DNA from: Confluentibacter lentus
Lineage (GTDB): Bacteria; Bacteroidota; Bacteroidia; Flavobacteriales; Flavobacteriaceae
Reading direction: 5' to 3'
NCBI RefSeq assembly: GCF_002806995.1
Contig: NZ_NIHE01000001.1
Coordinates: forward strand, 1 to 64,000
DNA: 64,000 nucleotides
Below, piece by piece: positions 19,078-49,711 of this stretch (its first letter is position 1; each line of letters starts with the position of its first letter). Made by a program: the position numbers and the translations under genes. The notes under the pieces were generated by a model that saw nothing but the letters and a program-made list of their open reading frames with translations, ran no database searches and had not been told where the DNA came from.

Positions 19078-19120
19078 TGACATATATCATTTTGATTTCG
19101 TTACGTTTAACATACATTTA
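19078..19120 (+). promoter_or_regulatory. Regulon operator A and promoter (PPOX-pfkB)
   Basis: TGACATATATCA (19078-19089; one mismatch to TGATnnnnATCA) is followed after exactly 23 nt by the -7 octamer TACATTTA (19113-19120). It serves the PPOX-fold gene starting at 19146 and perhaps pfkB behind it. It is the leftmost and the only imperfect member of the thirteen-site set. Confidence 0.8.
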
Positions 19121-19145
19121 TGAATGAAATTTAAAATTAAGTGTG

Positions 19146-19595
19146 ATGTTAGGAGACTTAAAAAAAAGCCAAATAGAACATTTATTGTATAGCCAAGTAA
19201 TTGGAAGAGTTGGCTGCCATGCTGATAATATGACCTACATTGTGCCTATAACATATGCTTATGATGGCAACTATGTTTATGGTCATACAAAAGAAGGTAT
19301 GAAAATAAACATGATGCGTAAAAACCCTAATGTTTGTTTCGAAGTTGATGTTATAGAAAACATGAGCAATTGGAGAAGCGTCATAGCTTGGGGTAAATTT
19401 GAAGAATTAAAAACTCTCGAAGAACGAAAAATGGGCATGCAAAAACTTATGGATCACATATCACCAATAATAACGGGCGAAACAACAATTCAACATGCTA
19501 TGACCGATTCCCATGGAAAATACATTGAGACCCTACAAGGTGTAGTATACAGAATAAAACTCATCGAAAAAACGGGTCGGTATGAAAAAAGATGA
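19146..19595 (+). CDS. PPOX-fold flavin-binding protein (NimA-like)
   Basis: A cytoplasmic FMN-binding split-barrel protein (149 aa from ATG 19146; a GTG lies one codon upstream) of the pyridoxamine-phosphate-oxidase-like superfamily. Family signs are the N-terminal IGRVGCHADNMTYIVPITYAYDGNYVYGHT block, KINMMRKNPNVCFEVD and WRSVIAWGKFEEL. Relatives reduce nitro compounds, bind haem or F420/FMN, or act in redox stress; the cofactor here is unproven. A distant paralogue under the same type of operator is at 42890-43354. Confidence 0.88.
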   Translation: MLGDLKKSQIEHLLYSQVIGRVGCHADNMTYIVPITYAYDGNYVYGHTKEGMKINMMRKNPNVCFEVDVIENMSNWRSVIAWGKFEELKTLEERKMGMQKLMDHISPIITGETTIQHAMTDSHGKYIETLQGVVYRIKLIEKTGRYEKR

Positions 19596-19689
19596 GTAAT
19601 TCTTAAAGAACTTTTTCGAATACAAATCAAAAGTTTCTAACTATATTAGAAGTGTTTTAAAACATTTCTAATCTTAAAAATTATAACTT

Positions 19690-20613
19690 TTGAATATCAT
19701 AACACTTACCATAAATCCTGCTTTAGACAAAAGTGCCAAAGTAGATGGTCTTGTACCAGATCAGAAACTGCAATGCCATTCTATAGTTTATCAACCTGGA
19801 GGAGGAGGCATCAATGTCTCAAGAGTGCTTAATAGGCTTGATGAACAAACCCATTGTATATTTACTTCTGGTGGTGATACTGGGAAAAATCTTAATGAAT
19901 TACTTTTAAAAGAAGGCATTAATCCCAAAACCATTTCTATAAAAGCATGGACAAGGGAAAACCTGTCCATAGTGGATACAAAAACCAATTTTCAATATCG
20001 TTTTGGAATGCCGAGTAACGGTTTACAGGATGCGGAACTCGATGAAATAAAATCGACGCTAGATAAATATCTTAATAATGGCGATATCCTTGTTTTAAGC
20101 GGAAGCCTTCCTCAAAACGTGCCGGCAGATTATTATGCGAGATTAATCAAACATGTATCCCACAAAAACATAAAGATTGTCATTGATACTTCTGGCCCCG
20201 CACTTACCGAAGCTCTTAAAGAAAAGGTGTTTTTGGTAAAACCCAATCAAAGAGAATTGGCGCAATGGGCAGGCAAGGAATTTTTATCAAGTACAGAACA
20301 AGAAGCCTTTGCTTTAGAAATGGTAGCATCAGGCAAAGCACTATATATTGTGGTTTCTTTAGGCGCAAGAGGTGCCTTTATGGCATCCAAAGAAGGCATT
20401 GTTTATCAATCCACGCCATCCATAACAGTAAAAAGCACCATTGGTGCGGGCGATAGTATGGTTGCAGGATTAATTTATGGAATCAAGAATGATTTTTCGG
20501 TAAATGACATTTTAAAATGGGGTGTTGCGTGTGGGGTGGCCACAACCATGAGTGAAGGAACCAATCTTGCCAGTAAATCAAATATTGACAATGTTATGAA
20601 AATGCTGAAGTAA
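19690..20613 (+). CDS. pfkB: 6-phosphofructokinase II (PfkB family)
   Basis: A ribokinase-fold sugar-phosphate kinase of 307 aa. TLTINPALDKSAKVDGL, QPGGGGINVSRVL (substrate-binding glycines) and the catalytic motif TIGAGDSMVAGLIYG (catalytic Asp in GAGD) place it closest to E. coli PfkB (Pfk-2), although the 1-phosphofructokinase branch is similar. The start is TTG: an in-frame TAA at 19684-19686 leaves no ATG upstream. It follows the PPOX gene by 94 nt with no visible terminator, so it may be read from operator A. PfkB also belongs to the mycobacterial dormancy regulon. Confidence 0.9.
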   Translation: MNIITLTINPALDKSAKVDGLVPDQKLQCHSIVYQPGGGGINVSRVLNRLDEQTHCIFTSGGDTGKNLNELLLKEGINPKTISIKAWTRENLSIVDTKTNFQYRFGMPSNGLQDAELDEIKSTLDKYLNNGDILVLSGSLPQNVPADYYARLIKHVSHKNIKIVIDTSGPALTEALKEKVFLVKPNQRELAQWAGKEFLSSTEQEAFALEMVASGKALYIVVSLGARGAFMASKEGIVYQSTPSITVKSTIGAGDSMVAGLIYGIKNDFSVNDILKWGVACGVATTMSEGTNLASKSNIDNVMKMLK

Positions 20614-20630
20614 ATTAAACGTTATCTTAC

Positions 20631-23162
20631 TTAATGGCTTGCTACTATTGAAGCTGGTTGTTTTCTTTTATACCATTTTAGGATTTCATACCAAATAACG
20701 AATAAAAATCCAGTGACAAAGCTCAAAAATACTTGGGTCATGGATAGTCTTTCAAATTTCAAAAACCCTATAAAAGGCTCTACAAAAATGAATAATGTCG
20801 TTATAAAAATCGTAATGCCAATTATAAGTGGTACCAATTTATTTTTATACCCCAAAGTGGTTATGACCGAATAAAAGAATGAACGATTGACCAAAGTTAG
20901 CGTCATGTTTGAAACAATCAGTGTTAAAAAAACCATGGTACGGGTCAATGATTCTCCGTAGTCACTATAAACTGCATATTGATATATAAGTAGGATACCA
21001 CCCGTAATCATCAAGCCTTGAAAAATACTTGTTGTGAGTTCCTTAAAATTTAAAAAAGTATGTGTAAAAGGACGTGGTTTTTGCTGCATGATGTTCTTTT
21101 CCATCGGTTCATTTTCATAAATGATGGAACATGTTGGCCCCATAATCAATTCCAACAAAATAACATGTACCGGCGAAAAAATATTAGGATACACCCATCC
21201 CAACGCCAAAGGAATGAAAACAGTTAGAATAATGGGAATGTGAATGGATATGATGTACTGAATCGCCTTTTTGAGATTTGCATAAATTTTACGCCCCATA
21301 GCAATGGCATCAATCATTTTTGATAAATCATCTTCCACCAGGATAATGGAAGCGGCCTGTTTTGCAATCTCGGTACCCCTCTTGCCCATGGCAATACCAA
21401 TATGAGCGGATTTTAAAGCAGGCGCATCGTTGATGCCATCGCCTGTCATGGCTATAATTTCATTTTGCGCTTTTAAAGCATTGACAATTTTCAATTTCGC
21501 ATCCGGGAACATTCTAGTAAACAAATAATTATCTGTGGAGGCGGATTGCAATTCTATTTCCGATAAATTCATTAATTCACTTCCGGAAATATGTTTGTCA
21601 TCATGTTTGAAATGTATTTGTTTTGCTATGGCAAGCGCCGTATTTTCATTATCACCTGTAATTATTTTTACTTTAATTCCAGCGTCATAAAAAGCTTTGA
21701 AAACGGATTGAATATTAGATTTTGGCGGATCATAGAAGGCGACAATTCCTTTGAAATTAAATTTGAAATCTTGCTGATTTGATGGAAAATCATTTCCGGA
21801 AAAATCAGATATTCCTACAGCCAATAAACGATACCCATTGGATGCCAAACTTTTGATATTATCATTGATTTGTTTTTTTTCATTTTCTGAAAGTTCGGAC
21901 ACATTCATGATGGCTTCTGGCGCACCTTTCGCCGCGATGATACGTTTGCCATTATCGTTCTCAAAAATATGGGTCATCATAGGAGGCGTTCCGCCTAAAG
22001 GATATTCGTGAACCATTTTATATTTTGGACGCTCATCTTCATAAACCGTTTTGGAATAGGCATCGTGCAAGGCCATTTCCATAGCATCAAATGGTATAGG
22101 TTCACTGGCCCACATGGCGAGCGCTATTAATTCTTTTTCATCTGCTGTAAATGCAGATGAATCAGCATCTGAAATGCTATTCGATTTTAAGGAATATATT
22201 TTAACAAGGCTCATGTCGTTTTTGGTAATAGTCCCTGTTTTATCAACGCAAATGGTTGTGGCACTTCCTAGGGTTTCAACAGTTTTCATTTGTTTTACAA
22301 CGATGCCCATTTTTAATAATCTATAGGTGCCCAAAGCCATAAACGTAGTAAAGGCTATGGGAATTTCTTCTGGTAAGATGCTCATTGCCAAAGTCAACGA
22401 TTTCAATAAACTATCTAAAATATCATAAGTTCGAAAATAATTCAGAACCCAAACACCAATAAAAATGACCACTCCAGCAACAACCATCTTTTTGATGAAA
22501 TTCTGGATTTGAATTTCAATAGGTGTTTTTTCTTCTTCTATGCTTTCTAGACTCTTTCCAATTTTACCTAATTCGGTCTTTTCACCGATAGCGCTAACAG
22601 TGGCAATAGCCAAGCCACTAGCAACAGTGGTACCTTGATACACAAAATGCTCTGCTTTGTCTTTGTCCTTGTAAACTGCGAGTGATTCTCCAGTAAGAAG
22701 GGACTCGTTGACCGAAAAGTCATTGGAATGAATGATGGTTCCATCTGCCGCTATTGAATAGCCCTCTTCAACAATCAAGGCATCGCCAATAACAATATCT
22801 TCGCTTTTGATATCCACGACTTCCCCATTCCTAATAACCTTGCTGTGCGGCTTCGTAAGGTCTTTTAATTTTTCTAATGCATTACGACTTTTGGAATCCT
22901 GATACAGGGAGATTGTAGACACTAAAACGATGGCAACAGAGAGAAAAACACCATCCCCTACATTACCCGTTATAAAATAAATACTTGCTGTAACCAACAG
23001 TAGAATAACCATTGGTTCTTTTAATAAACTTTTAAGAGCCCTTACAAGCTCATTTTCCCTTTTGAAATTGGTGCTATTACCACCAAATTGCTTCCTTGAT
23101 TTAAGTACTTCATTACTTGAAAGACCTTTAATATTGAAATTCTCTACTGAAATCATTGGCAT
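20631..23162 (-). CDS. P2-type cation-transporting ATPase
   Basis: An 843-aa P-type ATPase with an N-terminal cation-ATPase domain, actuator motif LTGES (156-160), phosphorylation motif CVDKTGT (Asp307), hinge TGDGINDAP and about ten membrane helices. There are no heavy-metal-binding domains. The membrane helix 4 motif is PEEIP (264-268) where classical Ca pumps have PEGLP, so the transported ion (Ca, Mg, Na or H) cannot be assigned. The mycobacterial dormancy ATPase CtpF is a P2-type pump as well. No regulon operator is present in the 216 nt upstream, only an isolated TGAT half-site at 23216. Confidence 0.92.
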   Translation of the reverse strand: MPMISVENFNIKGLSSNEVLKSRKQFGGNSTNFKRENELVRALKSLLKEPMVILLLVTASIYFITGNVGDGVFLSVAIVLVSTISLYQDSKSRNALEKLKDLTKPHSKVIRNGEVVDIKSEDIVIGDALIVEEGYSIAADGTIIHSNDFSVNESLLTGESLAVYKDKDKAEHFVYQGTTVASGLAIATVSAIGEKTELGKIGKSLESIEEEKTPIEIQIQNFIKKMVVAGVVIFIGVWVLNYFRTYDILDSLLKSLTLAMSILPEEIPIAFTTFMALGTYRLLKMGIVVKQMKTVETLGSATTICVDKTGTITKNDMSLVKIYSLKSNSISDADSSAFTADEKELIALAMWASEPIPFDAMEMALHDAYSKTVYEDERPKYKMVHEYPLGGTPPMMTHIFENDNGKRIIAAKGAPEAIMNVSELSENEKKQINDNIKSLASNGYRLLAVGISDFSGNDFPSNQQDFKFNFKGIVAFYDPPKSNIQSVFKAFYDAGIKVKIITGDNENTALAIAKQIHFKHDDKHISGSELMNLSEIELQSASTDNYLFTRMFPDAKLKIVNALKAQNEIIAMTGDGINDAPALKSAHIGIAMGKRGTEIAKQAASIILVEDDLSKMIDAIAMGRKIYANLKKAIQYIISIHIPIILTVFIPLALGWVYPNIFSPVHVILLELIMGPTCSIIYENEPMEKNIMQQKPRPFTHTFLNFKELTTSIFQGLMITGGILLIYQYAVYSDYGESLTRTMVFLTLIVSNMTLTLVNRSFFYSVITTLGYKNKLVPLIIGITIFITTLFIFVEPFIGFLKFERLSMTQVFLSFVTGFLFVIWYEILKWYKRKQPASIVASH

Positions 23163-23378
23163 AATTGATTAAGCACGGTATCTAATTTAAGGAATAAAGG
23201 CTTTAGAAAATCAACTGATATTCTTTTCTTTCAATCAATCTTTACTTCTCTAATGATTTAATCTCTTTTAATGGTTTATTTATAATTGTAGTTCCGCAAG
23301 CAAAATTTATTAATCTCGACATAACTATCTAAACAGTATTAAGAACAACATCTTGTATACTATTATTTATTCAATAAA

Positions 23379-24038
23379 TCATATAGCAATATCCCCTGTT
23401 TCTTCTTGATTTAAGGGCGTGATTAACTGTTCTTCCTCCAAAGCAATAATAATTAGGTTAACATATTCAGTGATAATACCCTGCACATTCTTTGGGTCAG
23501 TTATATCGATATATGCCTTCCATATTAAGGCTCTTTCTTTACCGGGGCAAATACAATACATGCTCGTTTCCGTATGGTATAATTTGAAATTCTCGTAATA
23601 GTCTGGGTTATAATAAATGTCTTGATACATAAGGTATTCTTCCTTGAACTTTTTATAAGTTGAATCAAAACCATCATAATCTTGTTTATACCTAATCTTA
23701 TCATCCACTCCAATTACTTTAGTGAATAAAATGGTATCAAAGCCCTCATCCAATAACTTAGCCTCCAAATCGTCCATCTGAGCCTCATCTATTTTCTCAG
23801 TAATCATCGATGGGTCAAAAAAGACCATACTAGTAATCGCTTCAGACCCTCTTAATTCAAATGTCCCTTTTAATTGATTTTCAAACTCTTGCCTTGCAGT
23901 TATGTTTGAAGTCATACCTATTATTAATACTTTAGATGGATAGTAGGTTGATATTTCTGGATTTTTCCATGAATCAACAAGCTCCACGGAACAACTAGAT
24001 AGCAGTAAAAATGATATGACCAAGATTAATGATTTCAT
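23379..24038 (-). CDS. Island lipoprotein, paralogue 1
   Basis: A 219-aa lipoprotein with lipobox LSSC (Cys16). It shares its layout with the protein at 49025-49651: VDSWKNPEISTYYPSKVLIIGMTSNITARQEFE against IDSWKSSEYNNYQPKKVLIVGITDNLTARKIFE (here shown only for comparison of those blocks), then a Tyr-rich YQDIYYNPDYY block and a WKAYIDITDP block. No catalytic motif is recognised; the fold recalls DUF4136-type lipoproteins. A short ORF overlaps its start by an ATGA, and it appears to be the last gene of the hsp20 operon. Confidence 0.75.
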   Translation of the reverse strand: MKSLILVISFLLLSSCSVELVDSWKNPEISTYYPSKVLIIGMTSNITARQEFENQLKGTFELRGSEAITSMVFFDPSMITEKIDEAQMDDLEAKLLDEGFDTILFTKVIGVDDKIRYKQDYDGFDSTYKKFKEEYLMYQDIYYNPDYYENFKLYHTETSMYCICPGKERALIWKAYIDITDPKNVQGIITEYVNLIIIALEEEQLITPLNQEETGDIAI

Positions 24039-24133: not shown

Positions 24134-24145
24134 AATTTATACTTT

Positions 24146-24592: not shown

Positions 24593-24608
24593 GACAGTTT
24601 TTTTTAAC

Positions 24609-25141: not shown

Positions 25142-25184
25142 TAAATTTACGACACTAAAACGCTGATGGAAATGATAAATATCA
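25142..25184 (-). promoter_or_regulatory. Regulon operator B and promoter (hsp20 operon)
   Basis: TGATAAATATCA (25173-25184) and -7 octamer TAAATTTA (25142-25149, minus strand) are 23 nt apart. The ATG of hsp20 follows about 37 nt after the octamer. Confidence 0.88.
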
Positions 25185-28818: not shown

Positions 28819-28861
28819 TAAATTTAATTGAGAATATACTTTACGGCAATGATAAATATCA
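28819..28861 (-). promoter_or_regulatory. Regulon operator C and promoter (USP 1 operon)
   Basis: TGATAAATATCA (28850-28861) and TAAATTTA (28819-28826, minus strand) are 23 nt apart. The operator lies just past the stop codon of the preceding USP gene. Confidence 0.88.
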
Positions 28862-31489: not shown

Positions 31490-31532
31490 TAAATTTAAAC
31501 CGTTCTGGGAACAAAAACCATGATAAATATCA
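31490..31532 (-). promoter_or_regulatory. Regulon operator D and promoter (USP 4-3-2 operon)
   Basis: TGATAAATATCA (31521-31532) and TAAATTTA (31490-31497, minus strand) are 23 nt apart, identical in sequence to operators B and C. Confidence 0.88.
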
Positions 31533-31576: not shown

Positions 31577-31608
31577 AAAAACGGAGAAGCTTACCACTTC
31601 TCCGTTTT
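31577..31608 (-). terminator. Hairpin upstream of operator D
   Basis: AAAACGGAGAAG (31577-31588/89) pairs with CTTCTCCGTTTT (31597-31608) around a short loop; both flanks are T-rich on the relevant strand. It would insulate operator D from leftward transcription. Confidence 0.75.
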
Positions 31609-31744
31609 CTTTGGATATTCAATTTTATCTTTTGATTTTTTCTAACCGTTAACATTCTTCATTACTAAGGAAAATTAACTTTTCAGCCAACAGATACCTT
31701 TGAATATCTTTTCTTTATATTTTAGATTTTCATGACAATTAATA

Positions 31745-31952
31745 ACTAAAAAACAGGAAGTCGAAACTTCCTGTTTTCCGAAGAACTTAAGTTTATCGAT
31801 TAACCGTTAATACAATCAGTATATAACTTTATTAGTATAAAGGGCACCTGATGATGTGGTATAAATAATAACTCTAAATTCCTCATTGAATCCATAAGAT
31901 CATGCTTTTACAGATTTCATGTTTTTATGAAAAAGAACTTATTTTAATTACA
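31745..31952 (-). ncRNA. Operator-driven short transcript, sRNA or micro-protein
   Basis: A leftward transcript of about 205 nt is predicted between operator E (start near 31952) and the terminator at 31749-31778. It holds a 31-codon ORF (31895-31800, starting MDSMRNLELLF) and, in another frame, MKSVKA then TGA then a 27-residue frame of protein-like make-up (31920-31816, SYGFNEEFRVIIYTTSSG at its start). Neither is recognised. It could be a regulatory RNA, a micro-protein, or a decayed gene with one TGG-to-TGA change. Confidence 0.5.
31749..31778 (-). terminator. Terminator of short transcript
   Basis: AAAACAGGAAGT (31750-31761) pairs perfectly with ACTTCCTGTTTT (31766-31777) around a four-base loop; on the minus strand the stem runs into a T-tract of six. 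Confidence 0.85.
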
Positions 31953-31955: not shown

Positions 31956-31998
31956 CTAATTTACAATACCACTATGGATTTGAAAATGATATATATCA
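31956..31998 (-). promoter_or_regulatory. Regulon operator E and promoter (orphan)
   Basis: TGATATATATCA (31987-31998) and TAAATTAG (31956-31963, minus strand) are 23 nt apart. The octamer variant TAAATTAG is the same as at operator L. No protein gene of normal size lies downstream before the terminator at 31749-31778. Confidence 0.8.
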
Positions 31999-33387: not shown

Positions 33388-33430
33388 CAAATATAGAGGG
33401 ATGGATTACTTCTTGAAATGATATCCATCA
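33388..33430 (-). promoter_or_regulatory. Regulon operator G and promoter (USP 5)
   Basis: TGATATCCATCA (33419-33430) and a perfect -7 box TATATTTG (33388-33395, minus strand) are 23 nt apart. The operator lies just downstream of the regulator gene's stop codon. Confidence 0.88.
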
Positions 33431-33453: not shown

Positions 33454-34506
33454 TCAATAAATACCCTGAAGCTTTTGAAGGTCCAAAATTTTAATATTTC
33501 TTCCTTCAATTTCAATAAGACCTTCCTTTTTAAATTGAGACATGGCCCTGATAAATGTTTCGGTTGCAATACCGGCAACACTTGCCAAATCGTAACGTGA
33601 AATTTTAATGGGATCTTCTGGTTTTCGATTCATTTTTTCTGCGAACTTTAAAATGGCAGTAGCGGTTTTTTTATTTACAGAGCTGTAAGCCATTTGTAAC
33701 AATTGGTCTTTAATATCCAAAAGGTCGTTAGTAAGCAGTTGAATAAACTCCAAAGTCATATTATGATTATCGTCGAGAAGATGTTTGAGTTGGTCTTTTG
33801 AAATACCAACCAATTTTGTGTTTTTAATAGCTGTTGCCGCTTCCCGATAGGGAATGTTTTGGATAAATGATGTGTAACCAAACAAATCGTCTTCTTTATA
33901 TAAAGCAGTTGTGAGCTCTTTACCTTGATCATCTAATTTATGGCATTTTACAACGCCCTTAATAATTAAAAAGATATGGTTTGAATGTTGCCCTTCTTTA
34001 TAAATTGATTCTCCTTCCTGAAATTCAAATGATTCTCCATTGTCATCAAAAAAATTTTTAAGGTCATTGAGTGTTTTAATTTCATCATCATTGTGCTTAA
34101 CTCCCTCTGGAACATGATTGTTTTCCTTTAAAATAGCGGTCTTTGCTAAACGGCTCTCAATCGCCGTTATAAGATCTTCTTCATTAAAGGGTTTGGTAAT
34201 ATAGTCATCTGCCCCTAGATTCATTCCCAAACGCACATCTTTTCGTTCCGCTTTTGCAGACAAAAAAATAAATGGTATAGATTTGGTACTTTCATTTTTG
34301 CTAAGTATCTCCAAAACGCCATAACCATCCAATTCCGGCATCATAATATCGCAAACAATAATATCAGGATGCAGTTGCTTTGCTTTTTCCACACCTATTT
34401 TACCATTGGAAGCCAAAATAACTTCATAGTATGAAAGCTCCAATATTTCTGCAGTATTTCCCCTTAACGAGGCATCGTCTTCTATCAATAATACTTTCTT
34501 TGTCAT
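33454..34506 (-). CDS. REC-CRP/FNR response regulator (proposed regulon activator)
   Basis: A 350-aa hybrid. Residues 1-122 are a receiver domain (Asp10/11, phospho-acceptor Asp53 in CDIMMPE, Lys105 in ITKPF). A cyclic-nucleotide-binding-fold sensor (about 155-265, FQEGESIYKEGQHSNHIFLI) and a CRP-type winged helix (about 275-345) follow. The recognition helix reads ATETFIRAM: Glu316 and Arg320 match FNR Glu209 and Arg213, while Ile319 replaces FNR Ser212. That predicts binding to TGA(T) half-sites without the leading T of TTGAT, which is what the thirteen operators show. The N-terminal cysteines of FNR are missing. It overlaps the kinase gene by ATGA. Confidence 0.9.
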   Translation of the reverse strand: MTKKVLLIEDDASLRGNTAEILELSYYEVILASNGKIGVEKAKQLHPDIIVCDIMMPELDGYGVLEILSKNESTKSIPFIFLSAKAERKDVRLGMNLGADDYITKPFNEEDLITAIESRLAKTAILKENNHVPEGVKHNDDEIKTLNDLKNFFDDNGESFEFQEGESIYKEGQHSNHIFLIIKGVVKCHKLDDQGKELTTALYKEDDLFGYTSFIQNIPYREAATAIKNTKLVGISKDQLKHLLDDNHNMTLEFIQLLTNDLLDIKDQLLQMAYSSVNKKTATAILKFAEKMNRKPEDPIKISRYDLASVAGIATETFIRAMSQFKKEGLIEIEGRNIKILDLQKLQGIY

Positions 34507-36005
34507 GAGGCTTTATTTGGTATGGTTAAAATAAACGTTGACCCTTTGTTTTCCTGACTTTTAAAAGTTATTGTACCACCTAAATTCTCTATATGTGATT
34601 TCGCTATATTAAGACCTATTCCGGTTCCTTGGGTAATTAGTACATTTTGTGCCCTAAAATAGCGATGGAATATGTTCTTTTGATCTTTTTCGGGAATTCC
34701 AATACCAGAATCTGAAATTTCAAAAGTTGTTTTGGATTTATCTTGCTTGACACTAATATTAACAATCGTATTTTCTGATGAATACTTTATCGCGTTGTGC
34801 ACTAAATTGGAGAGTGCCAATCCAATAGTCTTTTCATCTTGAACCAACGATATATCCTCTATATTCTCAGGATATTTAATTTGTTGCCCTTCCTTTAGCA
34901 ACATATTGGCATTGTAAACAACTTCATCAATTAATTTACTCAACCTAAATGTCGTGAATTTATAATTTACTTTTCCTGTTTCCAATTTTTCAAGAGACAA
35001 AAAATCATCCAGTATATTGTTTAAATAATATACTTTATCGGTAATTGTTTGAATATGCTTTTCCCTTTTATCTTGCTGCTCTTGCAATGTATATTTGCTT
35101 AAAAGAATGGTAGAGGTCAATATGGTACTCAATGGTGTTTTAAATTCATGGGAAACCAACGATAAAAATTTGGTTTTTAATTCATTGAGGTTTTTTTCTT
35201 GCTCAAGCGCTATTTTAAGTTGTTTTGTTCTCAACGCCACCGTTTTTTCTAATTTTTGGGTGTAGTTACGTTGCTCTGTTATATCTAAAATAATCGCTAC
35301 AAAGACTTTATTTTCCCCTAAAACCGATAGTTCTAAATTCACATAAACAGGATAGGTGGTTCCATCTTTGCGTTTATGAATCGTCTCGAATTCTATTTTG
35401 TCTTTAATATTCTTGACTAATGGCTCCGTTAACTTTCTGAATTTTTTTTCACTAAATTCTGGTTTAATATCCACTAAAGACATTTCTTTTAATTCACCCA
35501 ACGAATAACCTAGGTTTTTTTGCGCACCAAAATTGACATTTATAAATTTTAGTGAGACCGAATCAAAGACATATATTTCGTTCAGTGAATCGTCGAATAT
35601 TTTAGATAGATAATTGCGTTCTTGTTCTGCTTTTTTTCGGTCTGAAATGTCAATAATCAGAGCCATTACATACGTTTTATCGAAAATTGTAAAAGGGTTC
35701 AAGCCAACCTCTATCGGGAATTGATGCCCATTTTTGTGCCATCCGAATAAATCACGGCCATGACCCGTTTTACGTTTTTCACTATTATCGTAAAATGTCT
35801 TAAAATAACTGCCATGATTGGATTGGTATTTTTTTGGGATTAATACATGTAACCTCTTTCCCAATAATTCATTCTTATTATAGCCAAACATGGTATCTGC
35901 AGAGATATTTGTGGAAACAATATTCTGGTCTGCATCAACAATGACAATGCCCTCTGAAACCGCATCAGATAAAATTTGAAAAATGTCCCTGCTGTTTTTG
36001 AACAT
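34503..36005 (-). CDS. Soluble PAS-PAS histidine kinase (FixL-like PAS)
   Basis: A 500-aa sensor kinase without membrane helices or signal peptide. PAS 1 (about 5-120) resembles the FixL haem PAS: His64 (YQSNHGSY) and Arg84 (GHGRDLFG) stand 20 residues apart, as do His200 and Arg220 of Bradyrhizobium FixL. PAS 2 spans about 130-245. The HisKA phospho-acceptor is His286 (SLVSHEFKTP), followed by a full HATPase with N, G1 and G2 boxes. Many PAS domains share the His, so haem binding is plausible, not proven. Its stop overlaps the start of the response regulator gene, a clear cognate pair. Confidence 0.92.
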   Translation of the reverse strand: MFKNSRDIFQILSDAVSEGIVIVDADQNIVSTNISADTMFGYNKNELLGKRLHVLIPKKYQSNHGSYFKTFYDNSEKRKTGHGRDLFGWHKNGHQFPIEVGLNPFTIFDKTYVMALIIDISDRKKAEQERNYLSKIFDDSLNEIYVFDSVSLKFINVNFGAQKNLGYSLGELKEMSLVDIKPEFSEKKFRKLTEPLVKNIKDKIEFETIHKRKDGTTYPVYVNLELSVLGENKVFVAIILDITEQRNYTQKLEKTVALRTKQLKIALEQEKNLNELKTKFLSLVSHEFKTPLSTILTSTILLSKYTLQEQQDKREKHIQTITDKVYYLNNILDDFLSLEKLETGKVNYKFTTFRLSKLIDEVVYNANMLLKEGQQIKYPENIEDISLVQDEKTIGLALSNLVHNAIKYSSENTIVNISVKQDKSKTTFEISDSGIGIPEKDQKNIFHRYFRAQNVLITQGTGIGLNIAKSHIENLGGTITFKSQENKGSTFILTIPNKAS

Positions 36006-36109: not shown

Positions 36110-36152
36110 TGATATATATCATTTTTAAATAACAAAACAGCACTTAAATTTG
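36110..36152 (+). promoter_or_regulatory. Regulon operator H and promoter (TerB-like operon)
   Basis: TGATATATATCA (36110-36121) and a perfect -7 box TAAATTTG (36145-36152) are 23 nt apart, 19 nt before the ATG at 36172. The divergent kinase gene has no -7 box at the matching distance on its side. Confidence 0.9.
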
Positions 36153-37715: not shown

Positions 37716-37758
37716 TGATGAATATCATTTTATAATATTACAAAACCCTATACTTTTA
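37716..37758 (+). promoter_or_regulatory. Regulon operator I and promoter (WG-repeat operon)
   Basis: TGATGAATATCA (37716-37727) and TACTTTTA (37751-37758) are 23 nt apart. The octamer is also the left end of a 28-nt inverted repeat (37751-37778). Confidence 0.88.
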
Positions 37759-42682: not shown

Positions 42683-42725
42683 TGATATATATCATTGCCT
42701 TCTTAAAAGTGAGTTTATATTTTTA
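42683..42725 (+). promoter_or_regulatory. Regulon operator J and promoter (PPOX 2)
   Basis: TGATATATATCA (42683-42694) and TATTTTTA (42718-42725) are 23 nt apart. The following leader of about 160 nt before the ATG at 42890 is unusually long; it contains only very short frames such as a 14-codon one at 42803. Confidence 0.85.
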
Positions 42726-42889
42726 TGACAACAAAAAAATTAAAAGGTATAATTCTAATTTTAAGACCAATCATCTAACTGTTCACGCAAAAATTCAAAG
42801 TAATGGCTAGAATATTATTTTACTCATTCATATTTAGTAAAAAATAAAAGCCATAATCATGATAAAAAACATCTATAAATCGTAACATC

Positions 42890-43354
42890 ATGTTTATAAA
42901 TTTAGAAGATAAGGAAATCAAGTTCATTTTGGAAAATAATTATATTGGGTATTTAGGTTATGTCTATAAAAACAGACCTTATGTTATACCAATTACATAT
43001 TATTTTAATAGAGAAAATAACACGATCATTTGCTATTCTGGAGAAGGCCATAAAGTAGATGCCATGCGCAAAAACAATGCTATTTCATTACAAGTTACAT
43101 CAATTGATTCTGTTACTAACTGGAAATCTGTGTTAGTGCACGGAACTTTTGAAGAGCTTTTTGGTAGCATTGCCAAAGCTTATCTTCATAAATTTTCATT
43201 AGGGATTAAAGAGGTTATCATGGAGCAAGAACATAAAACAGTGAATTTTATAAGTGATTTTTCCAATAAAATATATAATGATGAGATCCCCACTGTATTT
43301 ATCATGAAAATTGAAGAATTCACTGGAAAAAAGAGAAATACATTCAGCGCATAA
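42890..43354 (+). CDS. PPOX-fold flavin-binding protein 2
   Basis: A 154-aa paralogue of the protein at 19146: IGYLGYVYKNRPYVIPITYYF, GEGHKVDAMRKNNAISLQV and WKSVLVHGTFEEL align with its blocks. FMN or haem binding is the family norm. It is the second member of this family carrying the operator, so a redox-linked duty during the response is likely. The C-terminus is basic (GKKRNTFSA). Confidence 0.87.
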   Translation: MFINLEDKEIKFILENNYIGYLGYVYKNRPYVIPITYYFNRENNTIICYSGEGHKVDAMRKNNAISLQVTSIDSVTNWKSVLVHGTFEELFGSIAKAYLHKFSLGIKEVIMEQEHKTVNFISDFSNKIYNDEIPTVFIMKIEEFTGKKRNTFSA

Positions 43355-43985: not shown

Positions 43986-44966
43986 TTAATTGTCTTTTGC
44001 CTTTCTCTCTTCCTTCTCCAATTTCCTAAAGTATCCTCTTGTTAAAAAATTATGCTTTAATGCTTCCATATTCTGGTTAAACTTGTCGCTACCCTCATTT
44101 ACATTTCTTAGGGTAGATTTTAAACTATTGACCAAGGATGTATCTTTTATAATGTAATTAAAGGCACCATCGCTGCTGTTTACATTCTCAATAATGGTAT
44201 TTAATTTTTCCACAGAATTTTCCATTTTAACACTTGAGCTTTCAAGATTGCCCAATGTTATTTTTAACTTGTTTCCAGAAATGGTGTCATTAAGCAATAA
44301 TCCTAAAATCGATGCATCATCCGTTTTGATGGATTTCACAAGACCATTCAATTCAATCAATGTATTTGAAGCATTCTCGCTCACCTGTTTTATGTTCTTT
44401 ATAGTTTGGTTTAGATTGGAAGACATAACGGTATCATTGAGAATGGTCGCCAAGGAGCCCTTGCCATTATTGATTGAGTTGGTAATTCTCAACAAATCCT
44501 CTGTCAAGATTTCGGTGTTTTTTATGGTCACACTCAAGTTACTCAAAAGATCATCAGGCTCTACTTTACTGAAGGATTTAATCATGTCACCATTTTCAAT
44601 AACTCCTGCAATACCATCCCTAGGAAGAATATTAATAATCATATTGCCCACCAAACCATCGGACCCAATGGTTGCCACCGCATTTTTTCTAATATGCTTT
44701 ACGATGTTTTCCTCTATATTCATCTCTACTTTAACAATGGAATCATTGAGCATCTCAATGGCTTTCACCGTTCCTATATTAATTCCTGAATAGCGCACAT
44801 TATTGCCTTTTTGCAAGCCATTCACATTTTGGAATTCCGCACTGATCATAAAGGTTTTTTTAAACATATTCTGTTTTTGACCTATTAAATAAATGCCCAG
44901 AACAAAGAATAGTGTACCAATGATTACAAATAAACCTAATCGTATTTTCTGTGAGTTTGTATTCAT
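43986..44966 (-). CDS. MCE-domain (MlaD-like) lipid-transport protein
   Basis: A 326-aa periplasmic lipid-carrier subunit anchored by one N-terminal helix (about 9-28). The MCE domain (about 38-115) begins FMISAEFQNVNGLQKGNNVRYSGINIGTV, and a long helical, Ser/Asn-rich tail follows. It is third in an operon after the permease and ATPase genes. The complex probably moves phospholipids between the membranes; no outer-membrane MlaA homologue lies nearby. Confidence 0.9.
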   Translation of the reverse strand: MNTNSQKIRLGLFVIIGTLFFVLGIYLIGQKQNMFKKTFMISAEFQNVNGLQKGNNVRYSGINIGTVKAIEMLNDSIVKVEMNIEENIVKHIRKNAVATIGSDGLVGNMIINILPRDGIAGVIENGDMIKSFSKVEPDDLLSNLSVTIKNTEILTEDLLRITNSINNGKGSLATILNDTVMSSNLNQTIKNIKQVSENASNTLIELNGLVKSIKTDDASILGLLLNDTISGNKLKITLGNLESSSVKMENSVEKLNTIIENVNSSDGAFNYIIKDTSLVNSLKSTLRNVNEGSDKFNQNMEALKHNFLTRGYFRKLEKEERKAKDN

Positions 44967-44976
44967 GACATCTGAT

Positions 44977-45759
44977 TTAGTGTTTAAAAAATGCTTTTAC
45001 TTTTGGGTCGGTTGAAACAGATAAGGCATCAAATGTTCCTTCTGCATAATTGGTGCCGTCAATCAATAAAACCATTCTATCTGAAATAGCTCGGGCACAA
45101 TCCACATCGTGCGTTATAATAAGCGATGATGTGTTGTATTTCTTTTGTATATCTTGCATCAAAATAATGATTTCTTTAGCAGTAATGGGGTCGAGTCCAC
45201 TGGTTGGTTCATCATACAAAATAATTTTTGGTTGTAAAATCAAGGTTCTTGCCAATGCCACCCTACGCTGCATGCCACCAGATAATTCGGCCGGCATTAA
45301 ATCTATGGCATGGGCTAATCCCACATTTTCCAGTGCTTCCATGACCAACGTATTGGTATCCATGTTTTTTTCAAATCTACTGGAATGTCTGCGCAAAGGG
45401 AATTCCAAATTTTCACGAACCGTCATGGAATCATATAATGCACTCCCTTGAAATAAAAAACCAATATCTGAACGTAATATATCTAATGCTGTTTGATTTA
45501 ACGTCGTAATATCTTTGTGCATGACCGAAATAATACCACTATCCGCTTGTATCAATCCCACAAGGCATTTGATCATCACCGATTTTCCAGAACCCGATTT
45601 CCCCATTATTACCAGGTTTTCACCTTTATAAAGTTTCATATTGAAATTCTTGAGCACGTGATTATCCCCAAAACTTTTGTTCAGGTTTTTAATTTCCAGA
45701 ACAATTTCTTGTGTACCTGTAACTTTTCCCTGTGGCAATATGGTATTACTTTCCTTCAT
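44977..45759 (-). CDS. MlaF-like ABC transporter ATPase
   Basis: A 260-aa ABC ATPase with Walker A GKSGSGKS, signature LSGGMQRR, Walker B IILYDEPTSGLDP and the H-loop ITHD. The long-chain/lipid-transport type is indicated by its permease and MCE neighbours. Its start overlaps the stop of the permease gene by 4 nt. Confidence 0.94.
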   Translation of the reverse strand: MKESNTILPQGKVTGTQEIVLEIKNLNKSFGDNHVLKNFNMKLYKGENLVIMGKSGSGKSVMIKCLVGLIQADSGIISVMHKDITTLNQTALDILRSDIGFLFQGSALYDSMTVRENLEFPLRRHSSRFEKNMDTNTLVMEALENVGLAHAIDLMPAELSGGMQRRVALARTLILQPKIILYDEPTSGLDPITAKEIIILMQDIQKKYNTSSLIITHDVDCARAISDRMVLLIDGTNYAEGTFDALSVSTDPKVKAFFKH

Positions 45760-46538
45760 AAGTCATAAAAAATGTCCGCTGCAAAAACCGCTATAAAGTC
45801 AATAATAAATAAGAGTAGGGATGTAAAAACCACTGCCGAATTGGCAGCGCGTCCAACTCCTGCCGTCCCTTTTCCACAATAATACCCTTTAAAACAGCCT
45901 ACAAGACCAATGGCCAAGCCAAAGAAAAAGGATTTTATGGTTGCGGGAATGATGTCTCCAAATTCCAACGATTCGAACACCTGATTAAAATATAATTGAA
46001 ACGACACATCGCCTTTAAGATGTTCTACCAAATAGGAACCATATAACCCAATGGCATCTCCAATAATTACTAACAGTGGTATCATAAAAGTTGTTGCCAA
46101 AACTCTAGTAACTACCAAATATTTAAAAGGATTGGTTCCAGACACTTCCATAGCATCAATTTGCTCGGTGACTCGCATTGAACCCAGTTCGGCGCCTATG
46201 CCAGAGCCTATTCTACCTGCGCATACCAAAGCCGTAATCATTGGGCCAATCTCTCTAATTATGGAAATACCTACCATAGACGGCATCCAGGAAACTGCTC
46301 CAAACTCCATAAGTGTCGGTCTGGTTTGTAAGGTTAAAACCAAACCAATGATAAATCCGGTAATACCGACTAAAACTAACGAGCGGTTTCCCATGCTGTA
46401 GCATTGTCTCAAAAACTCTTTAAACTCAAACGGTTTCCTAAAAGATTCTTTAAAAAAGCGTGCCGTAAAATAAGACAGTTCTCCTATTTCTTTCAAAAAT
46501 GTTTGAATATGGGATTTTATGTTGCTTAAACCCGACAT
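45756..46538 (-). CDS. MlaE-like lipid ABC transporter permease
   Basis: A 260-aa permease of the MlaE/YrbE family with five to six helices. The motifs GFIIGLVLTLQTRPTL, GIGAELGSMRVTEQIDAMEV (the family-typical EQIDAME) and VGRAANSAVV are intact. It is the first gene of the operon, 21 nt after the -7 box of operator K2. Confidence 0.94.
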   Translation of the reverse strand: MSGLSNIKSHIQTFLKEIGELSYFTARFFKESFRKPFEFKEFLRQCYSMGNRSLVLVGITGFIIGLVLTLQTRPTLMEFGAVSWMPSMVGISIIREIGPMITALVCAGRIGSGIGAELGSMRVTEQIDAMEVSGTNPFKYLVVTRVLATTFMIPLLVIIGDAIGLYGSYLVEHLKGDVSFQLYFNQVFESLEFGDIIPATIKSFFFGLAIGLVGCFKGYYCGKGTAGVGRAANSAVVFTSLLLFIIDFIAVFAADIFYDL

Positions 46539-46558
46539 GTTTTTCTTGTAACATTACT

Positions 46559-46601
46559 CAAATGTAATAGAATAGAATAGGGTGTAAAATGATTAAAATC
46601 A
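46559..46601 (-). promoter_or_regulatory. Regulon operator K2 and promoter (Mla operon)
   Basis: TGATTAAAATCA (46590-46601) and a perfect -7 box TACATTTG (46559-46566, minus strand) are 23 nt apart. It reads leftward into the MlaE-like gene. Confidence 0.9.
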
Positions 46602-46612
46602 TATACTTATAC

Positions 46613-46655
46613 TGATGAATATCATTTAGTAAACCAACTTTCACCATTACTTTTG
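46613..46655 (+). promoter_or_regulatory. Regulon operator K1 and promoter (patatin)
   Basis: TGATGAATATCA (46613-46624) and a perfect -7 box TACTTTTG (46648-46655) are 23 nt apart. It reads rightward; the two operators of this divergent pair are centred 23 bp apart. Confidence 0.9.
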
Positions 46656-46682
46656 AATAGTTTCATATCATACTTATTAATC

Positions 46683-47456
46683 ATGAAAATTGGTTTAGTA
46701 CTTTCTGGTGGAGGCATGAGAGGCGTTGCTCATATTGGAGTTATCCGCGCATTGGAAGAACATGGCATTATACCTACCCACATAGCGGGCTCTAGCGTAG
46801 GTGCTATTGTTGGTGCTTTATATGCTTACGGGTACGATTCGAAAGACATACTAAACTTCTTTAGAAGCATTCAGATTTTTGAATTAAAAAAATATGCAGT
46901 AAATAAGCCAGGCATTATCGATGCTGAAAAATTCTATAGTTCCTTCAAATTATATCTCAAGGAAGATGATTTTTCAGTGCTAAAAAAACAATTGTTCATT
47001 ACAGCTACCAATGTACTGAATGGGGAACTAACCGTATTCAATACTGGCGAACTGATAAAACCTGTATTGGCATCTGCCGCTTTTCCAGGAATATTTGCTC
47101 CTGTTAACATACAGGATTCTTACTATGTGGATGGAGGTGTTTTAAATAATTTCCCCGTAGATCAATTAAATGATGTTTGCGATGTCATCATCGGTGTATA
47201 TGTTAATGGTTTTGATACGGTGGCAATAGATGACTTAAAACATTCCCACAATGTCATTGAACGGGTTTTTAAATTAAAAACCGTAAGAGAAGATATTAAA
47301 AAATTTGAAACGTGTGATGTTTTAATATATCCCAAAGAATTAAACAAATACGGCACTTTTGACAGGAAATATCTTGACGATATTTATAAAATTGGTTATG
47401 ATACTGCCAATAAAGAGCTTGCCAAAAAACAAATACTGGATAAAATTCTAACCTAA
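46683..47456 (+). CDS. Patatin-like phospholipase
   Basis: A 257-aa lipid acyl hydrolase of the RssA/patatin family. It has the oxyanion loop GGGMRG, the nucleophile elbow GSSVG and the catalytic Asp in VDGGVLNNFP. The start is ATG 46683 because the -7 box of operator K1 covers the TTG at 46653 that would begin the longer frame. No signal peptide is visible, so it acts inside the cell, perhaps on phospholipids carried by the divergent Mla system. Confidence 0.93.
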   Translation: MKIGLVLSGGGMRGVAHIGVIRALEEHGIIPTHIAGSSVGAIVGALYAYGYDSKDILNFFRSIQIFELKKYAVNKPGIIDAEKFYSSFKLYLKEDDFSVLKKQLFITATNVLNGELTVFNTGELIKPVLASAAFPGIFAPVNIQDSYYVDGGVLNNFPVDQLNDVCDVIIGVYVNGFDTVAIDDLKHSHNVIERVFKLKTVREDIKKFETCDVLIYPKELNKYGTFDRKYLDDIYKIGYDTANKELAKKQILDKILT

Positions 47457-47497
47457 AGAATTATTCAAAAACCAATAATTAGCAAAATACAATCATC

Positions 47498-48468
47498 GTG
47501 AAAACATCTTTAAAATTGCAACTATGTTTGTTAGTTCCCTTACTCTTTCTAATGACTTTAATGTATGTTGTAAAAAGAATAATAATGCTGCATTATTGAA
47601 AAAAGATATCGTTTCAAAGCCTATTTTTCAACAAAATGTAAAGACCAACTCGATTCTGGTTGGAAAGAATATTACCGTCGGCAACTATTTCCAATATATA
47701 GATTCCCTTGTTATTAAATACGATTCGATAACCCCTTATAAGTTAACCGAACATCTCTTAGTAAGATCAAATCCTTGGATTATTGACACACTGCAAAATA
47801 CCGATTACTATAGAATGATAGTTAAGGATTCCTTTGTCTATGACCAAAAAAAGATGATTGTACTTCCCAAAGGTGCTTTGATTTTTATACCCGATTCCAT
47901 GAAAGCTGAAAAATTGCTTAAATCATTTAACCATACCTTGATTGACATCAACATACCAGAATTTAAACTCCGTATCTATGAAGATTCAACACAATTGTAT
48001 GAATTTCCAGTTAGAGTTGGCAGAAACGAAAAAAAATACTTAGCTATGGCCGGAAGAACAATGGATTTAAGAACAAAAACAGGAAAAGGAACCATTGTTT
48101 CCCATGTAAAAACTCCAGATTATTACAATCCCGTAGATGGAAAACGTTATTATACAACTAGAAGGGATGACCAAAAAGTTACTAGGCTCCCTCAGATTCC
48201 TTTTTTGGAACCCGAAATCAATGGTATGAGACATGGACAATTGATACATCCAACCACAAACCCTGTAACTTTAGGAAAAGCATATTCCAATGGTTGCATT
48301 GGGACTAAAGAAGCTGATGCCTGGGTTATTTATTATTACGCGCCAATAGGTACAAAAATACATATCCGCTATGATTTACAAGTCACTGATTCGGTAAAAC
48401 ATACCACTCTTTTAAAAGATATTTACGGTTACAGCAAAAAAGATAAAACCCTTATTATTAACAACTGA
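47498..48468 (+). pseudogene. L,D-transpeptidase (YkuD) gene with possible frameshift
   Basis: An L,D-transpeptidase (YkuD family) that cross-links peptidoglycan. The frame from ATG 47524 (314 aa) includes the catalytic domain with HGQLIHPTTN and the active-site SNGCIG, but its N-terminus has no proper signal peptide. In a different frame, GTG 47498 opens a classical hydrophobic export signal (KTSLKLQLCLLVPLLFLMTL) that stops at 47599. A one-base indel near 47540-47570 would join the two. The catalytic part is intact, so activity may persist; a sequencing error is equally possible. Confidence 0.7.
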
Positions 48469-48508
48469 TTATTATCATTTTAAAATATAAAGTAGTCATG
48501 TAAATTAG
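48466..48508 (+). promoter_or_regulatory. Regulon operator L and promoter (YtxH)
   Basis: TGATTATTATCA (48466-48477) and TAAATTAG (48501-48508) are 23 nt apart. The first three bases of the operator are the stop codon of the upstream gene. Confidence 0.85.
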
Positions 48509-48534
48509 TAGATAATCTTAAATTAATTAATATC

Positions 48535-48861
48535 ATGGAAAACGATAAATCAAGTATGATTGTTCCACTTTTGGTTGGAACTATCATTGGTGCCACCATA
48601 GGAATTCTTTTTGCTCCTGATAAAGGAAAAACCACTAGAGAAAAAATCAAAACAAAAACTCTGGACACTGCCCATAATATTTCTGAACAAATTGTAAATA
48701 CTAAAGAAGAAATAACAAAATTCGCCCAAGACAAAAAGGCTGAATTTGAGAAAAAAATTGAAAACAAAATTTCAAACTTAAGTTATAAAGTTGAAGATAT
48801 CATTAACAAATTAGAAGATAAACTGGAAGATTTAAAGAAAAAAAACGCCACCTTGCATTAA
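48535..48861 (+). CDS. YtxH-domain stress protein
   Basis: A 108-aa protein with an N-terminal membrane helix (IVPLLVGTIIGATIGILFAPDKGK) of the YtxH type, followed by a long amphipathic, Lys/Glu-rich helical tail (about 40-108). YtxH of Bacillus belongs to the general stress regulon, but its role is unclear. It is a single-gene unit between operator L and a terminator. Confidence 0.88.
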   Translation: MENDKSSMIVPLLVGTIIGATIGILFAPDKGKTTREKIKTKTLDTAHNISEQIVNTKEEITKFAQDKKAEFEKKIENKISNLSYKVEDIINKLEDKLEDLKKKNATLH

Positions 48862-48892
48862 ACCAATTATTATATTATTTCGATTCAAAACA

Positions 48893-48931
48893 GAAAATGT
48901 CACTGATTCCATATATTCAGTGACATTTTTT
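48893..48931 (+). terminator. Terminator after YtxH gene
   Basis: AATGTCACTGA pairs with TCAGTGACATT around a ten-base loop, followed by a run of T residues. Confidence 0.9.
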
Positions 48932-49024
48932 TATGTGAAACCTTGAACATGATGAGAAGGTTTACATACTAAATTATTCTTATCCTTTTTCTGCGCAACA
49001 AGTACATTCAAATTATCTATAGCT

Positions 49025-49651
49025 CTAAGGAATCAGAGATTCATTTTTCAATGCCCTGATAATGGCATTTACATAATTATGAACTGTAGAATTAATGCTT
49101 ATTGGATCTATAATATTATAGGAAGCGACCCAAACAAGAGATTTGGCATTGTTTGTTTTTATATTGTATAACGAAGATTCTATGTGATAAACTTTGTAAT
49201 TATTATAATAACCGGGTTCAAAATATACGTCTTGGTATAAATAATAGTAACGCCCAAAATGATGCCAATAATAACCCGATAAGAATTTGTTACCCGAATA
49301 AGATATTTCATTGTCTACTCCTTTTACTGCTGATATCAGTACGGAATCATATCCATCACTAACGAGTCGGTTCACTTCTTTGTCTATCTGCTCTTCAGTT
49401 TGTTTCGAGTTCATAAAATCCTCATCAAAAACAATGGAACTTTCAACGGCACTAATTCCTCTTCCAGATAACTTGTCCTTAAGATTTTGCTCAAAAATTT
49501 TTCGAGCCGTCAAATTATCAGTAATACCAACAATCAATACTTTTTTTGGCTGATAATTATTGTATTCACTGCTCTTCCAACTATCTATCATCCTTGTTGA
49601 AGAACAACTTAGAAGAACAGATAGCATCACAATACTATAAAACCGTTTCAT
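49025..49651 (-). CDS. Island lipoprotein, paralogue 2
   Basis: A 208-aa lipoprotein (lipobox LLSC, Cys16) related to the one at 23379-24038; the blocks IDSWKSSEY, KVLIVGITDNLTAR, a Tyr-rich YLYQDVYFEPGYY and a closing ALKNESLIP are in the same order. It has its own operator (M), whereas its sister belongs to the hsp20 operon. It is the rightmost gene of the regulon, next to the glycoside-hydrolase cluster. Function unknown. Confidence 0.75.
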   Translation of the reverse strand: MKRFYSIVMLSVLLSCSSTRMIDSWKSSEYNNYQPKKVLIVGITDNLTARKIFEQNLKDKLSGRGISAVESSIVFDEDFMNSKQTEEQIDKEVNRLVSDGYDSVLISAVKGVDNEISYSGNKFLSGYYWHHFGRYYYLYQDVYFEPGYYNNYKVYHIESSLYNIKTNNAKSLVWVASYNIIDPISINSTVHNYVNAIIRALKNESLIP

Positions 49652-49668
49652 CGTTTCTTTGTTTTTTA

Positions 49669-49711
49669 TAAAAATATGTATAGAAATCTATTTTTTCAAT
49701 GATATGTATCA
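49669..49711 (-). promoter_or_regulatory. Regulon operator M and promoter (lipoprotein 2)
   Basis: TGATATGTATCA (49700-49711) and TATTTTTA (49669-49676, minus strand) are 23 nt apart. It is the rightmost of the thirteen sites. Confidence 0.86.

Follow-up and report, generated by a model that had tools for sequence, protein, structure and literature searches.

A stretch of 64,000 nt from Confluentibacter lentus (assembly GCF_002806995.1, contig NZ_NIHE01000001.1, positions 1-64,000 of the forward strand, G+C 34%; hereafter the window) carries thirteen FNR-like palindromes in a gene cluster that includes universal stress proteins (USPs), Hsp20, DnaJ/CbpM, PfkB and an M50/CBS protease. This raises the question of whether the palindromes are the operators of a single regulon, as an earlier note on the sequence had proposed, and if so, which protein reads them and in response to which signal. 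We find that all thirteen occupy one fixed position relative to a promoter octamer and that the same design recurs in relatives. Operators, gene content and neighbouring protein architectures together make it quite probable that the cluster is a low-oxygen survival regulon, in which a FixL-type kinase and a regulator with receiver and CRP domains, in effect a fused 'FixJ-FixK', act on class II operators.

Thirteen operators in one promoter geometry

The palindrome TGATN4ATCA is present in 14 exact copies in the window as against a mean of 2.65 in shuffles, none of 100 of which reached 14. With one mismatch allowed, it is not clearly enriched (63 versus 52.85 expected, 4 of 100 shuffles as high), and hence it is the octamer and the spacing that carry the case. 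Twelve of the exact copies and one variant with a TGAC half-site (TGACATATATCA at 19078) constitute the thirteen operators, at each of which an octamer begins exactly 23 nt from ATCA (11 TAnnTTTR and two TAAATTAG, the latter at 31987 and 48466), with seven sites pointing leftward and six rightward. The coordinates, the spacing on both strands and the flanks (A or C before TGAT, G or T after ATCA) are thus as the earlier note had given them, but its list omitted two further exact palindromes, at 47939 and 50749, which lie inside predicted open reading frames (ORFs) and are devoid of an octamer. The operators and the genes they precede are as follows.

19078-19089, plus strand: operator TGACATATATCA, octamer TACATTTA at 23 nt, predicted start 19125; precedes pyridoxamine-oxidase-like gene 19143 and PfkB 19690
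25173-25184, minus strand: operator, octamer TAAATTTA; precedes Hsp20 25105 and probably later genes too
28850-28861, minus strand: operator, octamer TAAATTTA; precedes USP 28791 and probably 27527, ATP-cone/Mrr 26664 and beta-CASP/RMMBL 25286
31521-31532, minus strand: operator, octamer TAAATTTA; precedes three USPs, from 31465 down to 28864
31987-31998, minus strand: operator, octamer TAAATTAG; precedes a structured RNA
33419-33430, minus strand: operator, octamer TATATTTG; precedes USP 33342 and 32009
36110-36121, plus strand: operator, octamer TAAATTTG; precedes 36172, DUF302 and phosphorylase-superfamily gene 36994
37716-37727, plus strand: operator, octamer TACTTTTA; precedes WG-repeat gene 37785 and M50/CBS gene 38428, downstream of which lie, on the same strand, DnaJ, CbpM-like MerR, CDP-alcohol transferase and phosphoesterase genes
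42683-42694, plus strand: operator, octamer TATTTTTA; precedes a second pyridoxamine-oxidase-like gene, 42890
46590-46601, minus strand: operator, octamer TACATTTG; precedes MlaE, ABC and MlaD genes
46613-46624, plus strand: operator, octamer TACTTTTG; precedes patatin and YkuD genes
48466-48477, plus strand: operator, octamer TAAATTAG; precedes YtxH-like gene 48535
49700-49711, minus strand: operator, octamer TATTTTTA; precedes 49651, lipoprotein-like by our reading, with no Pfam match

For comparison we used the best 80 of at least 573 candidate loci from a regulator scan of public genomes, which are therefore the closest relatives (1.61 Mb in total; record titles give Flavobacteriaceae, or Flavobacteriales / Bacteroidia). 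Strict sites are defined as TGATN4ATCA with TAnnTTTR at a spacer of 23 nt, counted from ATCA to the octamer, and relaxed half-sites as TGAY-N4-RTCA; 31 spacers (8-38) were compared. With relaxed half-sites paired to TAnnTTTR or TAnnTTAG, the window holds 13 pairs at the spacer of 23 and a single pair at each of 12 and 21, whereas 200 first-order Markov windows gave at most 2 pairs at any one spacer. A matrix trained on the 80 loci, among them that of L043, a close relative whose regulator is 90% identical, recovers exactly the 13 sites in the window at every threshold from 8 to 14, as against 0.0-0.4 in shuffled windows. At a matrix score of 9, the first 19 kb and the glycoside-hydrolase region are free of such sites, in keeping with the earlier note.

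Transcription starts mapped in Flavobacterium psychrophilum put the TAnnTTTG box at -12 to -5 and give a median leader of 24 nt (PMC9723704, in the portion consulted). With the octamer placed likewise, the operator spans -47 to -36 and is centred at -41.5 in all thirteen window sites and in 159 strict sites of relatives, the starts in C. lentus being predicted. A centre at -41.5 is the position of class II activators, and the class II CRP/FNR geometry of the window promoters is supported by this predicted placement, as is the position near -41 that had been claimed. The predicted start precedes the first matched ORF by a median of 20 nt in relatives (257 of 305 relaxed sites), similar to the F. 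psychrophilum value, and leaders of 13-41 nt are predicted at 10 of the 12 protein promoters of the window (160 nt at 42683, and -7 to a TTG at 46613). Since TTG occurs within 6 nt after the operator at only 35 of the 305 relaxed sites of relatives, the -33 element is not conserved. The base before TGAT in the 159 strict sites is C in 56%, A in 38%, G in 2% and T in 2%, so that the claimed departure from the TTGAT of classical FNR is borne out; on the promoter side, T follows ATCA in 96%, making the flanks asymmetric. Taken over the sites as a whole, TGAY describes the half-site better than a strict TGAT.

Recurrence in the genome and in relatives

The whole genome (3.35 Mb) holds 122 exact palindromes and 25 strict pairs over spacers 8-38, of which 13 are at spacer 23 and 10 of these lie in the window. 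Motif and spacing are thus not scattered at random genome positions, an outcome that the earlier note had named as damaging to its proposal: of the three strict matches outside the window, one (C1:136347) precedes a phosphotransacetylase-like and acetate-kinase-like pair and another (C23:106784) lies downstream of cydAB-like genes and in front of a TolC-like gene, both with good scores, and the third (C23:17737) falls below the matrix threshold of 9. Matrix matches in the genome also stand before ccoN, a copper ATPase gene (octamer GAAATTTG), a USP gene on contig C31, the pta-ackA-like pair and a USP gene upstream of cydAB-like genes. Gene names outside the window (pta-ackA-, cydAB-, TolC-, CcoS-, HemN- and NirK-like) are our own reading of the proteins.

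The search of related genomes that had been suggested reveals the same spacer-23 design in all 80 loci when half-sites are relaxed, with 305 pairs at 23 and no more than 13 at any other spacer. Strict pairs number 211 over the 31 spacers, 159 of them at 23, while 12 control palindrome cores give 0 or 1 pair at 23, these cores being rarer (16-95 copies versus 282). Twenty-three loci have no strict site, and a matrix built from the other loci gives at least one match above 9 in each of them. Five of the 305 relaxed sites fall inside matched coding sequence. Among 194 TGAT-ATCA sites of these loci (TTAG octamer allowed), 85 precede a USP, 17 the gene corresponding to 36172, 12 a WG-repeat gene, 8 Hsp20, 4 the kinase and 30 an unmatched ORF, the remainder preceding other matched genes; 21 have no ORF of at least 70 aa within 400 nt.

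The candidate sensor and regulator

Two adjoining genes in the middle of the operators are of particular relevance.

33454-34506, minus strand: candidate regulator with receiver domain, cNMP fold and HTH_Crp_2
34503-36005, minus strand: sensor kinase with PAS domains (the first of FixL heme type), HisKA and HATPase

The former protein, which the earlier note had put forward as the regulator, is the best candidate for the role: it combines a receiver (residues 5-117), a cNMP fold (161-247) and HTH_Crp_2 (282-347), and adjoins a FixL-type kinase. The nearest solved relatives of the first PAS domain of this kinase are FixL (1d06, 1.4e-13) and DosP. The kinase adjoins the regulator on the same strand in 79 of the 80 loci; the exception, L043, is cut off at the regulator by the end of its contig. 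The kinase His is present in all 79 kinases and the heme-type His position is His in 78; this His, and a distal Arg discussed below, are presumably the heme residues, as we read the knowledge of FixL onto the kinase alignment. The receiver Asp and Lys are each present in 82 of 82 receiver-CRP proteins. By its sequence, the kinase has the heme-type PAS and HisKA/HATPase that characterize FixL. The regulator matches none of the known partners in full, as its output domain is HTH_Crp_2 and not the LuxR-type HTH found in FixJ, and its receiver at residues 5-117 sets it apart from FixK, a CRP-family protein without receiver. The 82 receiver-CRP proteins have 1-4 Cys each and a receiver at the N terminus, and hence lack the four-cysteine cluster of FNR, which the stand-alone FNR proteins have in all 13 copies found in the 80 loci.

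The genome encodes five HTH_Crp_2 proteins. A second receiver-CRP on contig C31 is 71% identical to the window copy; near cbb3 oxidase genes (L036:14653-18652), it lies together with a USP, a FixL-like kinase of its own and a stand-alone FNR. The latter (C31:25974-26648) has four conserved cysteines. Genes for a cbb3-type oxidase or its copper ATPase are also present in 22 of the 80 loci. In an alignment with solved FNR chains, Ile occupies a recognition-helix position of both receiver-CRP and stand-alone FNR at which the solved chains have Ser. We take this position to be the FNR contact to the outer T, and Ile in place of Ser fits the missing outer T of the operator.

In the mechanism that we propose, the heme-PAS kinase (34503-36005) would sense oxygen and, upon a drop in oxygen, phosphorylate the receiver domain of 33454-34506, which with receiver and CRP/FNR domain in one chain would do the job of FixJ plus FixK. 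The active protein, as a dimer, would occupy (A/C)TGAY-N4-RTCA-T next to the -7 octamer; from this site, with its centre at -41.5, it would recruit RNA polymerase in the manner of a class II activator, presumably activating rather than repressing its targets. This would turn on genes for stress proteins and chaperones, for a protease and for membrane-lipid transport, along with the tandem structured RNA, over operons of predicted extent. The low-oxygen reading derives from the cbb3-linked operators (ccoN, copper ATPase), the FixL-type PAS and a gene set like those of DosR and lxa.

Which protein reads the operator, and for which signal

Across a sample of 249 Flavobacteriaceae genomes there are 1256 occurrences of the strict pattern, with at least one site in 206 genomes, as against 55 occurrences of the reversed pattern (a total tallied by hand from the table; per-genome counts and match lists were likewise transcribed by hand). 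The regulator was found in 113 of these genomes (cut-off 1e-40) and stand-alone FNR in 161 (E<=1e-35, which may take in paralogues). Strict sites average 7.8 per genome with the regulator versus 2.7 without, 42 of the 136 latter having none; a partial regulator match (G194) is counted as regulator-plus here and some regulator-minus genomes are incomplete. Within ~10 kb of the regulator there are 9.9 strict sites per 100 kb, as compared to the mean of 7.8 per whole genome in the 113 regulator-plus genomes. Sites per Mb rise from 0.35 in genomes with neither protein (n=46) to 1.14 with FNR only (n=90), 1.65 with the regulator only (n=42) and 2.49 with both (n=71). In a phylum sample of 296 genomes the regulator was found in 43, with 36-47% identity outside Flavobacteriaceae.

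Several findings weigh against the receiver-CRP regulator acting alone, or in the manner proposed. One of the 113 regulator-plus genomes lacks any strict site, the 90 genomes with FNR but no receiver-CRP match still have 1.14 sites per Mb, and five genomes matching neither protein carry 4-7 sites each. The recognition helix E..IR is common to receiver-CRP (E, I and R each in 80 of 82) and stand-alone FNR (13 of 13), and just 63 of the 79 kinases have Arg at the distal heme position. Site 36110 pairs with an octamer rightward only, which leaves the kinase and regulator genes lacking a promoter of this type of their own in the window; in relatives, just 4 of the 194 sites precede the kinase. An operator private to the receiver-CRP regulator was rejected, as 94 of the 136 regulator-less genomes have at least one site of the strict design. 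The claim of a single regulon is therefore retained as to a regulon with class II geometry and weakened as to 'single', the operator being common to genomes without the regulator.

It appears unlikely that the thirteen operators are read mainly by the stand-alone FNR (C31:25974-26648), with receiver-CRP doing something else. The shared E..IR helix and the four Cys of all 13 FNR copies speak for it, as do the FNR-only genomes that carry the motif: in two of these (G017 and G107, 17 strict sites) the sites precede CcoS-, HemN-, NirK-like and CBS-protein genes, a triosephosphate isomerase gene and an Rrf2-type regulator divergent from a cytochrome c, among others, with no ORF called within 500 nt at 2 of the 17. 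However, regulator-plus genomes without an FNR match still have 1.65 sites per Mb, and the sites cluster around the receiver-CRP gene while FNR is found in just 13 of the 80 loci, all cbb3-linked. The two proteins most likely use the same operator, judging from helix and distribution, and an FNR is likely to read it in regulator-less genomes. Somewhat short of an even chance, in our estimate, is a wider version, in which both receiver-CRP paralogues and FNR share one pool of operators and the island is part of a larger network rather than a separate regulon. The five CRP-type HTH proteins and the operators at ccoN, copper ATPase and pta-ackA-like genes are in its favour, FnrN and FixK overlap similarly in rhizobia, and we found no counterpoint; as it is compatible with the fused FixJ-FixK mechanism, the likelihoods of the two overlap.

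The regulator could also be the right one and its signal another, namely NO, redox or nitrogen oxides instead of oxygen, since NO and CO are also possible ligands of heme PAS domains, and 16 of the 79 kinases have a residue other than Arg at the distal position. The nearest solved PAS relatives, FixL and DosP, are oxygen sensors and 22 of 80 loci hold cbb3-type oxidase or copper ATPase genes, which leaves this possibility improbable, if slightly less so than a leading role for FNR. Given a G+C of 34%, short boxes and a one-mismatch palindrome that is hardly enriched, one might suspect chance, or else some general feature of promoters that involves no regulator. The matrix scan and the spacer controls in window, genome and 80 loci, by which a chance origin of the spacing was rejected, reduce the likelihood of this reading to almost nil. 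The low-oxygen regulon of FixL-type kinase and receiver-CRP protein is thus the reading that we carry forward.

A structured RNA behind one of the operators

Site 31987 shares the geometry of the other twelve, but as judged from its downstream sequence it serves a structured RNA and not a recognisable protein gene. Two units follow it.

31745-31951, minus strand: first RNA unit, predicted transcript of ~207 nt with a hairpin and T run at its end, core 31748-31883
31577-31709, minus strand: second, tandem RNA unit, 60.3 bits with the covariance model

There is no ORF of 80 aa on the minus strand between the site and the next USP, where the candidates are of 26-41 aa. A 203-nt stretch behind the site folds at -44.7 kcal/mol (z -3.45), and ORF-less sites at the same place after a USP are found in relatives. 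In an alignment of 14 such RNA sequences, picked by eye from the relatives' ORF-less sites, 16 of 30 base pairs show changes on both sides. The fold pairs 93.1% of cells, none of 500 shuffles reaches it on any of five measures, and slid structures pair 37-51%. At E below 1e-6 the covariance model built on it identifies units in the window (two) and in 17 of the 80 loci, 13 of the 17 being in the training set, with up to four tandem copies ~180 nt apart. The RNA recurs in further genera close to this regulator, and its covariation extends across them. Matches are found in 38 of the 249 genomes at 0.01 and in 27 at 1e-4, in a scan with stricter filters whose weakest matches include opposite-strand hairpins; by our reading, 26 of the 27 have the regulator. 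Changes on both sides are seen at 27 of 29 pairs in an alignment of 60 matches, which was fitted to the model and is hence biased towards it, unlike the shuffle test on 14 sequences; L084, L097 and L107 are absent from it despite high scores. Rfam 15 gave no match for the RNA region and only a tRNA over 17000-51000. As a guess, it may serve as a sponge or act by base pairing.

A second short RNA-like class is also seen behind the operator, with a GCTATTAATC-type box before differing terminator hairpins, in 8 sequences (L048, L052, L057, L065, L091, L096, L115 and L122, near 12.2-12.7 kb). No consensus fold could be obtained for these 8.

Comparison with known systems

A close parallel is the rhizobial FixL-FixJ-FixK system, with which the C. 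lentus pair shares a heme-PAS kinase and a CRP/FNR output on a TGA(Y)-type palindrome; the FixK box is of this type and FixK targets include the cbb3 oxidase. FixJ and FixK are two proteins, whereas receiver and CRP domains are on one chain in C. lentus, where in addition the outer operator base is C or A and not T, and the -7 octamer is of the Bacteroidota type. E. coli FNR likewise uses an N4 palindrome centred at -41.5 at class II promoters, but the C. lentus half-site lacks the outer T, its regulator has a receiver instead of the N-terminal cluster cysteines, and even its stand-alone FNR has Ile where solved FNR chains have Ser.

In gene content the cluster resembles dormancy regulons. Unlike the C. 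lentus protein, DosR itself belongs to the LuxR-type response regulators and has a different operator; Rip3-like M50/CBS, cation ATPase and pyridoxamine-oxidase-like genes are features in common with its regulon. The USPs, Hsp20 and PfkB of the DosR and lxa sets are all present in the window, where they would come under one low-oxygen regulator. According to the parts of PMC6127331 consulted, the DosR dormancy regulon of Mycobacterium tuberculosis comprises USPs, alpha-crystallin and phosphofructokinase, so that USPs, a small heat shock protein and phosphofructokinase are shared with C. lentus. The same source describes the lxa locus of Burkholderia cenocepacia, drawing its likeness to the DosR regulon, as holding six USPs, a heat shock protein, phosphofructokinase, a metallo-beta-lactamase protein and a phosphate acetyl/butyryl transferase in connection with low oxygen. 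USPs, heat shock protein and phosphofructokinase thus recur in C. lentus, albeit in another phylum, and the lxa regulator discussed in those parts is an ANR/FixK-like CRP protein. NmpRSTU of Myxococcus xanthus also has a heme-dependent kinase and an oxygen-related regulon but an NtrC-like regulator with sigma-54 (PMC11841059, in part). Within the order, cbb3 oxidase and heme synthesis are induced at low oxygen in F. psychrophilum (PMC9723704, in part), and a CRP/FNR protein of a Flavobacteriales metagenome-assembled genome (MAG) was treated as MalR-like (PMC8510549, in part).

The novelty that had been claimed for the layout agrees with our search, which found no matching description in the open-licence literature, seen mostly as titles and abstract starts, so that this absence is weak evidence. 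In that literature little is said on oxygen control in Flavobacteriaceae. Operator, exact 23-nt spacing and octamer provide a testable rule that names candidate promoters in many genomes and ties them to a candidate sensor and regulator. The USP/Hsp20/PfkB survival set would in this case be under another type of regulator, and the tandem RNA without an Rfam match would give the response an RNA arm. We somewhat favour the broader view that Bacteroidota have an anoxic-survival regulon which works through a one-protein FixJ-FixK fusion governed by a FixL-type kinase, arose independently of DosR and lxa, and includes in its output a new family of tandem structured RNAs transcribed from that operator.

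Left edge and origin of the cluster

The cluster begins after a tRNA-Lys (18869-18942) at its left edge. A tRNA-borne island with direct repeats was considered, but a clean insertion is not borne out: no repeat of the tRNA-Lys 3' end was found in the window, and synteny with a genome of the same genus (G110), which runs up to 19014, resumes only over PfkB (19609-20620, 86%). Beyond PfkB, C. lentus contig C1 has no match in G110 up to 104000. G110 has one receiver-CRP only (at 1e-40). In the regulator tree, the window copy groups with that of MAG 32-35-8 (90% identity) among island copies, and the C31 copy groups with cbb3-linked copies of Confluentibacter, apart from the window copy. A lateral gain of the window regulator is plausible from this topology, or else a loss elsewhere.

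Promoters with deviating leaders

At the 46613 promoter, the TTG start as annotated lies 7 nt before the predicted transcription start, and an internal ATG start is likelier. At the 42683 promoter, the predicted leader (42730-42890, 160 nt) is far longer than the rest.

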